Origin: Pseudobacteriovorax antillogorgiicola
GTDB taxonomy: Bacteria > Bdellovibrionota_B > Oligoflexia > Oligoflexales > Oligoflexaceae
Direction of reading: 5' to 3'
DNA: 64,000 bases
Assembly (NCBI RefSeq): GCF_900177345.1
Contig: NZ_FWZT01000002.1
Location: forward strand, 372,001-436,000
Positions within the stretch are counted from its first letter, which is position 1. Each line of letters starts with the position of its first letter. Below, piece after piece: positions 23,745 through 51,145 of the stretch. A model generated the notes under the pieces. That model did not search any database. It worked only from the letters and a program-made list of their open reading frames with translations, and had not been told where the DNA came from. A program made the position numbers and the translations under genes.

Positions 23745-24203
23745 ATGAATGTGAACGAAATTTTAGAAGGCCTGAAGGGCCGTGCCAGCGATCTGCTCAA
23801 GCAGCCAGATCAAGCGATGTCTTTTATCTCCAGAGTTCAGAGCAAGTACAGCCGGAAGTCGTTGCCTCGGTTTGCAGACTTTCGTGAAGACATGGAACTG
23901 GCATTAGGTATGATGAAGGACGTGATCAAGCGTCGCTATACGAAAGTTCCGTGGCAATCGCTACTGATTGTGGTAGGCGCTTTTATCTACTTTCTGAACC
24001 CATTTGATATCGTGCCGGACTTTATCCCTCTAAAAGGGCTTTTGGATGATGCTACGGTTCTAGTGTATGTTTTGAAAGCAGTTCACGATGACCTTGTAGA
24101 ATACGATCTCTGGCGCAAAGATAGCCAGAGGGCTGACATCACACCTGCACCTAGTAGGGACCCCGATGCAGAGGATGCTGAATGGCAAGACAGCTCCCAA
24201 TAA
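23745..24203 (+). CDS. YkvA-family (DUF1232) membrane protein
   Basis: 152 residues with the DUF1232 core: a hydrophobic segment near residues 68-85 (SLLIVVGAFIYFLNPFDIVPDFIPLKG), where the N-P-x-D-x-x-P-D-x-x-P pattern is diagnostic, followed by GLLDDATVLVYVLKAV. The N-terminal 60 residues are helical and charged; the C-terminus is acidic. Function is not established for the family. It starts 33 bases after the binding-protein gene and may be co-transcribed with it. Confidence 0.82.
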   Translation: MNVNEILEGLKGRASDLLKQPDQAMSFISRVQSKYSRKSLPRFADFREDMELALGMMKDVIKRRYTKVPWQSLLIVVGAFIYFLNPFDIVPDFIPLKGLLDDATVLVYVLKAVHDDLVEYDLWRKDSQRADITPAPSRDPDAEDAEWQDSSQ

Positions 24204-24205
24204 GG

Positions 24206-24338
24206 CACTAGTGCCTAGTCGATTTGAAGCCTCGGCGTTGTTGACTTTGTCACGCGCTCGTCACCGTACCCAGCACGTACTGTCTCCCCGTTCGCTCCTT
24301 GTCGCCGAGCCGAGAATTCAACTTGACTGGGTACTTAG
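24206..24338. repeat. Dispersed intergenic element, copy 1
   Basis: About 130 bases between a DUF1232 gene and panP. It matches 51017-51145 at roughly 85 % by hand alignment, including CACCGTA, CCAGCACGTACTGTCTC and AGAATTCAACTTG. The ends are imperfect inverted repeats: GTGCCTAG at 24211-24218 can pair with CTGGGTAC at 24327-24334 through two G-U wobbles, and GTACCCAG at 24266-24273 is a perfect complement of the same arm. No reading frame is conserved. It fits a non-autonomous mobile element or a structured intergenic element. Confidence 0.75.
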
Positions 24339-24346
24339 CTGTAACA

Positions 24347-25966
24347 CTAGGTTCCTGTCTTTGACCAAGACTCTCCTCGCATGAGCGTTCGTGCAATCTT
24401 GCGCTGCTCGTCAAGGATTTCGAGCAGATGCTTTTCTTTGGTCAAGGGGTTGGCGAGCACCACGCGGAACACATTGATGGTTTTACGGTCATATTTGACC
24501 GGCTGCAATGCGGTTCGTGATACAAAGTTTTTGCCCTTGTCACGCTGTTCTTTCTGAATGGTGACAGTCAACCGGTTGAGATGGTCGTTGAGTCTACGTT
24601 GCTCCTCGTAAGAGGCTGTGCCGAGAACTTTTTGAACGTTTTCAGGAACGTAGCGATAGGTTAGGATATTAAGTTCAGGTTTGGTAATCAGCTCAAAATC
24701 CGGAGCTTCTTGAATCATTTTTGCAAACAGTTGAGCTTTATCGATACCCATATCGATCAACATTTCGTAGCCGCGGCGCCCAATGATTCGAAACCCTGAA
24801 TGAACCAGCATGGCCATTCCAGGCCGTGAGCCCTCCAGGCTCTTCCGGCCTAAGTCACGGGAGCCTTTTCGAATGATGTACTCGGCGTGATGCTCGATAC
24901 AGGCCAGGTCACCCTTGTCCCTGAAAACGGCAAAGGCGGCACCCATCGGCACGTAGAGCTGCTTGTGAGCATCAAACGTTACTGAATCAGCGGTTTCTAT
25001 TCCTCTTAGCTTTGAGCGATGGGTGGAGGAAAACAGGGTAGGCCCGCCCCAAGCTGCGTCCACGTGAAAATGGATATCCTCGGCTTGGCACAAATCAGCG
25101 ATCTTAGATAGTGGGTCGACACTGCCGGTTTCTGTGGTGCCGGCGATGCCTACGATGGCGATGATTGCCTTATTTTCTTGCTTAAAGCGGAGTACCTGCT
25201 CTCTGAGAACATCAACTTGGATCTTGTTGCGGTCATCGGTGGGAATCGATATGAGATTGCGTTTGCCGATGCCTAGAAGGTTGGCAGCCTTGCTTAGCGA
25301 GTAATGGCCCCGTTGCGAGACCAGAATCACAGCACCGTCTTTTTCGTACTCTTGTAGAGCTGTGTGAAGGCCGTCCTCGGAAACTCCGGCGAAGTCTTTT
25401 CGTGGTGGAAAGCACTTGTTAAGAGCGACCCATAACGAAGTGATATTGGCGATTGTGCCGTTGGAGCAGAAAGTGCCTAGAGCTACTTCATGGTCTTGGG
25501 TATGTCTCTTATAGAACATGGTGCTGTTGCCGTAGATAAGGTGATGAACCATGCCAATCACCTGGCGCTCTAAAGGAGTAAAGGATTTAGACGTTTCTAT
25601 CTTTACCAGGTTCTGATTGAGAGCAATCATCATTTTCGACAGGGGCAGCATAAAGTAGGGCAAGGCAGAGGTCATATGGCCGACAAAGCGAGGGGAGGCT
25701 GTATGAACTGACTGAGAGACCACATTGTTGAGCAAGAACTCTGCTTGCTCGGAGACGAAAACTGGGTCTTCGGGCACCTTGAATTCACGAAACATCCTCT
25801 CAAGGTTGGCTGGCGTTGTTTCAGCCGAGACGATATGCTCCTTTAAAAATCCAAGAAGGTTTTCAGAGATTTTTTTTTCTATCTGACCCAGTGTGCTATC
25901 TTCACTTTCGGGGATTGTGAAGATTTTGTGTAGCGTCTCTAGGGTTACGTCTGGCTTCTGTGACAA
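24347..25966 (-). CDS. panP: Pyridoxal-dependent aspartate 1-decarboxylase PanP
   Basis: Group II PLP decarboxylase that makes beta-alanine from aspartate, replacing PanD in many gamma-proteobacteria and relatives. Diagnostic stretches are FVGHMTSALPYFMLPLSKMM, LVKIETSKSFTPLERQV, and the cofactor-lysine motif SVTFDAHKQLYVPMG; HVDAAWGG binds the cofactor ring. I use the TTG at 25966, 7 bases after GGGAAGG, giving 539 residues with an N-terminus like other PanP. Upstream in-frame starts at 26035 (ATG) and 26050 (TTG) add AT-rich, non-family sequence. Glutamate decarboxylase is the alternative call, less likely given these motifs. Confidence 0.87.
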   Translation of the reverse strand: MSQKPDVTLETLHKIFTIPESEDSTLGQIEKKISENLLGFLKEHIVSAETTPANLERMFREFKVPEDPVFVSEQAEFLLNNVVSQSVHTASPRFVGHMTSALPYFMLPLSKMMIALNQNLVKIETSKSFTPLERQVIGMVHHLIYGNSTMFYKRHTQDHEVALGTFCSNGTIANITSLWVALNKCFPPRKDFAGVSEDGLHTALQEYEKDGAVILVSQRGHYSLSKAANLLGIGKRNLISIPTDDRNKIQVDVLREQVLRFKQENKAIIAIVGIAGTTETGSVDPLSKIADLCQAEDIHFHVDAAWGGPTLFSSTHRSKLRGIETADSVTFDAHKQLYVPMGAAFAVFRDKGDLACIEHHAEYIIRKGSRDLGRKSLEGSRPGMAMLVHSGFRIIGRRGYEMLIDMGIDKAQLFAKMIQEAPDFELITKPELNILTYRYVPENVQKVLGTASYEEQRRLNDHLNRLTVTIQKEQRDKGKNFVSRTALQPVKYDRKTINVFRVVLANPLTKEKHLLEILDEQRKIARTLMRGESWSKTGT

Positions 25967-26105
25967 GATGCTACCTTCCCCAGTTATTTGGTAAAATTGA
26001 CGTAAAATAAGGTATTTGAAATAGCAATATTTCATATCCTTAGCAATCAATTCTGCGACGATATCGAGTCCGCCACAGTATCTTGTCGGCTAATTCTCAG
26101 ATTTT

Positions 26106-50342: not shown

Positions 50343-50939
50343 ATGAAACGATCGTTCATTCTTTCAAACTTGATCCTAGGTTTGATCTGCTCCTGTGGAG
50401 AAAATCAATTTCAAAGTGGCGGAAGTAACAAGGAAGCTAGTAAAGGGTCCAACTTAGAGGCCAAGCTTCCCGAAAACGGTGGGACGTCACCAGACTCAAT
50501 TCCCGCTGGTCCTGACTCAGTGATAGACTTGCCTCAAGAGGAGGTAAGGCAAGTGGAAGAGGTGAATCTTCCGATTCAAAATTCCGAATGCTCGGCTGCA
50601 GAGGGAGATGAGTACACCCAAAGTTTCAATGATAATAACGGGAACCCAGTTTTTAACGTGAGTAAGTATGAGAATATACTAGTCAATGGCAACGAGAACG
50701 AAGTGACAATCAACCTTAACTCAGCAGCGCAGATCAATAAGGTTTGTCTTTGGGTCAATGGTAATGATAACAATGTGACTGTTAATGTAACAGGGAATGT
50801 GAAAGAGCTTTATCTAGGGCTTAATGGCAATAATGGAGATTCAGTCATTCAGCTCCTACAAACTGGGGTAGTCAACCAGCTGTATCACTTCGTAGATGGT
50901 GTGCAAACGAAACCACGAGTGATCAAACCTAGCATATAG
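50343..50939 (+). CDS. Lipoprotein with NGN-repeat beta-helix-like domain
   Basis: 198 residues with a lipoprotein signal (LGLICSCGEN). After a disordered linker come three short repeats with NGNENEVTINL, NGNDNNVTVNV and NGNNGDSVIQL, similar to DUF3060-type repeats that form a small parallel beta-helix. Two cysteines (NSEC and KVCLW) may form a disulfide. AGAGGG precedes the ATG. Surface or periplasmic adhesion is conceivable but not shown. Confidence 0.6.
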   Translation: MKRSFILSNLILGLICSCGENQFQSGGSNKEASKGSNLEAKLPENGGTSPDSIPAGPDSVIDLPQEEVRQVEEVNLPIQNSECSAAEGDEYTQSFNDNNGNPVFNVSKYENILVNGNENEVTINLNSAAQINKVCLWVNGNDNNVTVNVTGNVKELYLGLNGNNGDSVIQLLQTGVVNQLYHFVDGVQTKPRVIKPSI

Positions 50940-50950
50940 GAATGCTCTTT

Positions 50951-50985
50951 AAAGGAGTTGCCAGTATCATATCGGCAACTCCTTT
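50951..50985 (+). terminator. Strong hairpin downstream of the NGN lipoprotein gene
   Basis: Perfect 12-bp inverted repeat AAAGGAGTTGCC/GGCAACTCCTTT with an 11-base loop, 11 bases past the stop. Only three T close the stem, so termination could be weak or factor-assisted. Confidence 0.6.
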
Positions 50986-51016
50986 GATGTAATGTCTTTA
51001 AGCTTCCCCTAAATCG

Positions 51017-51145
51017 AGTGCCTAGTCGATTTGAAGCCTCGCGTTGTTGACCTCGTCACTCGCTTATCACCGTAGCCAGCACGTACTGTCTCATTGCTCG
51101 CTCCTTGTTGCCTAGCCAAAAGAATTCAACTTGGCTAGGCACTAG
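51017..51145. repeat. Dispersed intergenic element, copy 2
   Basis: 129 bases matching 24206-24338. Here the ends are a perfect inverted repeat: GTGCCTAG at 51018-51025 pairs with CTAGGCAC at 51135-51142. The right part also folds on itself: GCCTAGCCAA/TTGGCTAGGC with an 11-base loop. No reading frame. It lies in the AT-richer accessory stretch, between two lipoprotein genes. Confidence 0.75.

Follow-up and report, generated by a model that had tools for sequence, protein, structure and literature searches.

Two related intergenic hairpins in the window (the whole stretch of 64,000 nucleotides that was analysed from the genome of Pseudobacteriovorax antillogorgiicola) are probably copies of a non-autonomous mobile repeat that inserts at CTAG and belongs to a superfamily with a core conserved across bacterial phyla and exchangeable arms, of which ERIC is probably another branch. 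The elements are about 127-131 bp long, contain no gene, and have long inverted-repeat arms with a CTAG at either end; their inner core reads GAGACAGTAC-loop-GTACGGCGAGGA. No earlier description of this core-sharing superfamily was found in the literature searched.

The two copies in the window

The original prediction had described an intergenic stretch without a reading frame that occurs twice in the window, and had placed its boundaries correctly within 2 bases. The two copies (Table 1) are 85.9% identical and align over their whole length with small gaps, as had been stated, but with 18 computed mismatches in place of the approximately 16 that had been counted by hand; the shared block quoted at the time, CCAGCACGTACTGTCTC, is present. 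A whole-genome search with copy 1 recovered copy 2 with E = 8e-34. The start and end letters are CTAGTGCC...ACTTAG for copy 1 and CGAGTGCC...CACTAG for copy 2, and the element is assigned to the strand that gives the core as GAGACAGTAC..GTACGG. A long hairpin fold was obtained for each copy by structure prediction.

Neither copy overlaps a plausible gene among the ORF predictions for the window. Copy 1 occupies nearly all of the gap that separates two convergent genes, and copy 2 lies 75 bp downstream of an ORF whose end is at 50939. Directly past this ORF, and 30 bp ahead of copy 2, a terminator-like 17-bp inverted repeat with a 1-nt spacer was observed (50951-50985).

Table 1. Element copies, their parts and the genes beside copy 1, in window coordinates.
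Feature	Position	Strand	Remarks
Hairpin element copy 1, subfamily A	24208..24338	-	CTAG to (C)TTAG
Copy 1 left arm (terminal inverted repeat)	24210..24236		27 nt, 78% complementary to right arm
Copy 1 conserved core, approximate	24253..24291	-	+ strand CGCGCTCGTCACCGTACCCAGCACGTACTGTCTCCCCG, the reverse complement of GAGACAGTAC-loop-GTACGGTGACGAGCG
Copy 1 right arm (terminal inverted repeat)	24309..24335		
Hairpin element copy 2, subfamily A	51015..51145	-	CGAG (mutated CTAG) to CTAG
Copy 2 left arm (terminal inverted repeat)	51017..51035		19 nt, 84% complementary
Copy 2 conserved core, approximate	51058..51096	-	+ strand ACTCGCTTATCACCGTAGCCAGCACGTACTGTCTCATTG
Copy 2 right arm (terminal inverted repeat)	51125..51143		
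ORF, 152 aa, upstream of copy 1	23745..24203	+	TAA stop 4 bp ahead of element
panP-like gene (pyridoxal-dependent aspartate 1-decarboxylase), convergent	24347..26050	-	3' end 8 bp past copy 1

Copy number and subfamilies in the genome

The genome, a 7.28-Mb draft in 68 contigs of a member of the Oligoflexia (Bdellovibrionota), gave 37 matching places in a DNA search and about 58 distinct copies of subfamilies A and B in a profile search; the profile list has 61 entries, three of which are the same palindromic elements on the opposite strand. Chance or a simple two-copy duplication is ruled out by this copy number. The original prediction had held a mobile family to be unlikely if only the two window copies existed and related genomes had none; in addition to the copies in this genome, the core was found in relatives (see below).

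Subfamily A, which includes both window copies, comprises about 36 copies including fragments, with a length of about 130 bp and a mean identity of 88.6% (20 copies aligned). Subfamily B comprises 22 copies, nearly all of exactly 127 bp, with nearly perfect arms of about 30 bp and a mean identity of 96.7% (12 copies aligned); the two subfamilies are 75% identical to each other. Subfamily A is old, and subfamily B is young and the product of a recent burst. A subfamily C in the same genome has the core as in A and B, with wholly unrelated arms. The terminal inverted repeats, the approximately 58 genome copies and the second, nearly identical young subfamily had gone unnoticed in the original prediction, whose reading as a small non-autonomous, MITE-like family is borne out by the many copies, the terminal inverted repeats, the lack of a gene, the specific target site and the recent burst. 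Its alternative, a structured intergenic element, also holds, the element being hairpin-forming as well as, by these signs, mobile.

Of 41 copies, 40 are free of overlap with a predicted ORF, and a flank-versus-flank comparison for copies nested in other repeats gave no match. One arm has been rewritten to fit the other at L005, L013, L025 and L050, as expected from hairpin template switching. Remnants that consist of arms only, with the core lost, were also found (39 bp at G000:C27:97393-97431), and core-less mini-hairpins made from the two arms only were seen in two different genomes, at this place and at L097 (about 1500-1550).

Target site and position at gene ends

The listed copies of subfamily B carry CTAG on both ends, with unrelated sequence outside. 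Among the 41 copies with readable flanks, 39 adjoin the 3' end of a neighbouring gene (ORF predictions by an in-house script), and the gap is convergent for 20 copies and divergent for one. The TAG stop codon of the neighbour is the terminal CTAG of the element in 16 of the 41 copies, compared with 5 of the 225 CTAGs in the window that lie at stop codons (p = 7e-11); when the control is restricted to the noncoding CTAGs in the window (5 of 37 at stops), the enrichment is modest (p = 0.01). At one locus (L051), each of two convergent neighbours has its stop inside one of the flanking CTAGs, and both proteins cover their Pfam profiles to the end; the simplest account is one ancestral CTAG that was shared by the overlapping stops and was then duplicated. 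From such ends we infer a putative target-site duplication of CTAG, or of the TA within it.

The ends of subfamily C read TA-AGGGGAGC..GCTCCCCT-TA, and those of the elements of genome G010 read TA-GATTCTG..CAGAATC-TA. Judged by these ends, TA is what the targets of A/B, C and the G010 elements have in common, as for published ERIC (PMC2759123). Insertion would be at TA within a preferred CTAG, most simply with duplication, and the element would be tolerated chiefly at the 3' ends of genes, in many cases precisely within a C-TAG stop codon.

Occurrence of the core in other genomes

No match was found by blastn in 37 relatives. With a profile (R1), members were found in two further families of the order, and a core profile (R2) detected the core in 12 of the 58 class genomes, mostly in several copies, the weakest of these matches being uncertain. 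The arms of the elements in these class relatives are unrelated to those of A and B; the inner motifs agree, i.e. CAAGGCG opposite CAACGCAG, and GACGAGACAGTAC-loop-GTACGGCGAGGAG. In a genome of the same family (G001), three tandem elements about 115 bp apart were observed (L108 1479-1829).

Over public genomes, the pattern GAGAYAGTACN{3,9}GTACRGYGASGA matched at least 119 stretches, with a chance expectation of about 3 matches (for uniform bases, with 18 fixed and 4 two-fold positions worth 40 bits, and a search space of 257 Gb on two strands with seven gap lengths). Most of the 80 matching stretches that were read are long hairpins, and their hosts include Pseudomonas, Stutzerimonas, Providencia, Methylophilales, Chromobacteriaceae, Rhodocyclales, Magnetococcales, Desulfobulbales and Oligoflexia. 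Nineteen matching genomes contain 1 to 19 exact copies apiece, and none of the reversed control pattern; these genomes had been picked for having a match, so the result is the copy number, not the presence. Exact-pattern copies number 13-19 in each of the Desulfoprunum, Magnetococcales and SKS1 MAGs. Related copies with extra stretches inserted within the arms were observed in Deltaproteobacteria MAGs (L152, L167, L173, L193).

No gene was found to recur beside the core in other lineages, where only ordinary genes at shared loci were seen; a group of ABC-ATPases near the core has the frequency expected from the size of the group. Several species of Pseudomonas and Stutzerimonas have a single copy at one shared locus close to carB and dapB, where the flanks are conserved (L130, L137, L149, L153, L175, L177, L192, L205); in Pseudogulbenkiania, Chromobacterium and Vogesella, one copy occupies a shared locus close to a hemW-like gene (L161, L171, L194, L203). 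The structure of these shared-locus copies in Pseudomonas and Chromobacteriaceae is kept, with a few compensatory changes. Their conservation counts against a purely selfish view, and single copies kept at shared loci suggest a host function for some copies.

In the Providencia vermicola chromosome, a canonical element lies directly upstream of the 16S rRNA gene, whose 5' end is about 40 bp away (L164 222-334). The genome has four canonical copies with identical scores (see also L276-L279), at least three of them with identical flanks, as expected of rRNA operon leaders.

Relation to ERIC

ERIC is among the best-known bacterial repeats and is the basis of ERIC-PCR typing. It is a non-coding, intergenic, imperfect palindrome of 127 bp with TA ends, whose mode of movement is not known (PMC2229807, PMC2759123), and it is known from Enterobacteriaceae and Vibrionaceae (PMC10969869).

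The elements described here resemble ERIC in length (127 bp in subfamily B, about 130 bp in A), in being intergenic and multi-copy, in the TA at the ends (here inside the terminal CTAG), and in inner blocks, AAGGCGGC..GCAGCCAACGCA, that flank a small apical hairpin. They differ from ERIC in their target, which is CTAG in place of plain TA, in their unrelated arms, and in their host, which belongs to the Bdellovibrionota. The apical hairpin of ERIC is CCCCAG..TTAC-ATAA-GTAA..CTGGGG, whereas the apical part of the element, the GAGACAGTAC-loop-GTACGGCGAGGA core, is absent from ERIC; the element is therefore regarded as a relative of ERIC and is not classed as ERIC. The earlier statement that none of the known families that could be named matches is to be corrected, as layout, length and core relate the element to ERIC. 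At the gathering thresholds of its families, Rfam gave no match in the window and, at 20 other loci, six matches (rRNA, tRNA, RNase P, ureB sRNA, P31), all away from the element. Literature searches that took in few subscription papers found no ERIC-like elements elsewhere.

Natural copies agree with the ERIC consensus used as query at 92-94% over the full length. When this consensus was compared with the 80 core loci, the alignments gave z > 3 in 24 of 80 in one orientation and in 1 of 80 in the other, and z = 7.5-9 with the Magnetococcales elements. In direct global alignments of ERIC with A and with B, 1 and 3 of 2000 shuffles, respectively, scored equally high, and ERIC and one of the elements (L196) share the colinear exact blocks AAGGCGGCAAG and CGCAGCCAACGCA. 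A structure model (R3) built from twelve non-ERIC elements detected ERIC of Klebsiella with 23.5 bits (E = 2.8e-6 in 1.5 kb) and, weakly, ERIC of E. coli (6.5 bits, E = 0.3), with place and strand correct. Applied to the whole Providencia genome, the same model returned the four canonical copies and eight weaker matches, five of which share 67-71% identity with the ERIC consensus (E 5e-4 to 7e-3).

A common descent of ERIC and these elements, with ERIC as a branch of the core-sharing superfamily, is considered quite probable. Convergence, by which the elements would be mobile and their likeness to ERIC would be that of low-complexity GA/GC-rich hairpins, could account for the failure of sequence-only profiles to detect ERIC, for the marginal BLAST result between the element family and ERIC, and for the low score of E. 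coli ERIC even with the structure model. It is nevertheless unlikely: low-complexity similarity is at odds with a likeness that is specific to one orientation, with exact blocks in colinear order, and with a genome-wide recovery of five Providencia ERIC copies by a model that contains no ERIC.

Mobilisation of the element

For TA targets, an IS630-type (DDE_3) transposase is a natural candidate; IS630/Tc1 was rejected as the mobiliser, as the DDE_3 family is absent from the genome. DDE_Tnp_1 genes and three Y1_Tnp genes are present, and no ends resembling those of A/B were found around them. Likewise, no longer element with A/B ends was found in the 68-contig draft, all strong end pairs coming from elements of at most about 131 bp. 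The transposase with matching ends that had been proposed as something to look for was thus not found in the draft genome. Insertion sequences may have collapsed at the contig ends of the draft, and two DDE fragments are located at contig ends. An IS5-family element in the genome has ends GAGCCTATCC, which are 7/10 like GTGCCTAGTC, and TTA on both sides; as a link to the mobiliser it is a lead only. At L260 (1153-1993) lies an insertion sequence of the IS5 family that has the ends GAGCCTATCCGAAAAC and is flanked by TTA on either side; the same end sequence is present in L269, an overlapping contig stretch.

By general MITE standards, the element is short, non-coding and bounded by terminal inverted repeats; an autonomous element with the same ends was not found in the 68-contig draft. 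With Correia/NEMIS, RUP and other bacterial MITEs it further shares TA ends and a presumed insertion in trans (PMC2229807). The ends of RUP resemble those of IS630-Spn1 (PMC2229807), whereas in the present genome no insertion sequence was found whose ends match, DDE_3 is missing, and what is conserved is the core, not the ends.

As an ordinary MITE, the element would be a deletion derivative of an insertion sequence, possibly of IS5/IS427 type, of which only the terminal repeats are read, with the core as a passenger or as a site for a host factor. Terminal repeats, a fixed target and mobilisation in trans belong to the usual MITE picture (PMC2229807), and the IS5-family element above would fit into it. 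We consider this origin rather unlikely, given that the ends of A/B and of C differ completely within one genome in which the core is retained, and given the results of the searches for longer elements, for A/B-like ends and for DDE_3. A transposase that reads the ends predicts conserved ends and a free middle; the opposite is seen, from which we infer that the mobilising enzyme recognises the core or the folded element.

The mobile CTAG repeat would be moved by transposition at the DNA level, by an enzyme that acts in trans and that would read the core or the whole folded element, not one fixed terminal sequence. The arms may stay complementary through a requirement for the paired form in movement and through arm-to-arm copying, and effects on neighbouring mRNA would be a by-product. 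That a single ancient, multi-phylum superfamily including ERIC is mobilised via the internal core or a folded single strand, and not via terminal repeats, is put forward tentatively, as a possibility short of a probable one.

The hairpin might instead act in transcripts, for instance by stabilising 3' ends, as a site of processing or as a weak terminator, with copies retained for this function. Such a role would agree with the position of nearly all copies at gene 3' ends, with the structure kept by the shared-locus copies, and with the effect of ERIC on mRNA stability in Yersinia (PMC2229807, PMC10969869). The location at gene 3' ends is, however, explained by the CTAG target, and the young copies are scattered and nearly identical. 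In the stems, G-U is not in excess of A-C (79 versus 89); the lack of preference favours pairing at the DNA level, or none that is strand-specific. With respect to the upstream gene, the two orientations of the element are in balance (11 to 8), which speaks against selection for an RNA signal in most copies. On these two balances, we rejected selection for RNA structure in the arms, and a structured RNA is judged improbable as the explanation for the family. RNAalifold gave almost no pairs for A and B together.

Movement of a REP-like element by a REP-associated tyrosine transposase (RAYT/Y1), to which the three Y1_Tnp genes and the non-autonomous, extragenic, palindromic character at gene 3' ends that is shared with REP/REPIN might point, is very improbable and was rejected: the element, with about 130 bp, symmetrical CTAG ends and a cross-phylum internal core, is far longer than REPs, which are palindromes of 20-40 bp with a GTAG or CGTC tag (PMC3733652), it has no such tag, and the Y1 genes are without A/B-like ends nearby.

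Implications

The C-TAG stop-codon target provides a simple reason why the elements gather at gene 3' ends and leave the genes unbroken. If recognition of the core or of the fold is true, this would be MITE-like DNA that is moved in a way unlike the model in which a transposase reads the ends. If ERIC is a branch of the superfamily, its mobility would become testable by comparison, i.e. for a co-occurring gene, for the parts that stay constant, and for a protein that binds the core. The genome described here is a good model for such work, with three subfamilies that have different arms, and with 22 nearly identical copies that stem from a recent burst.
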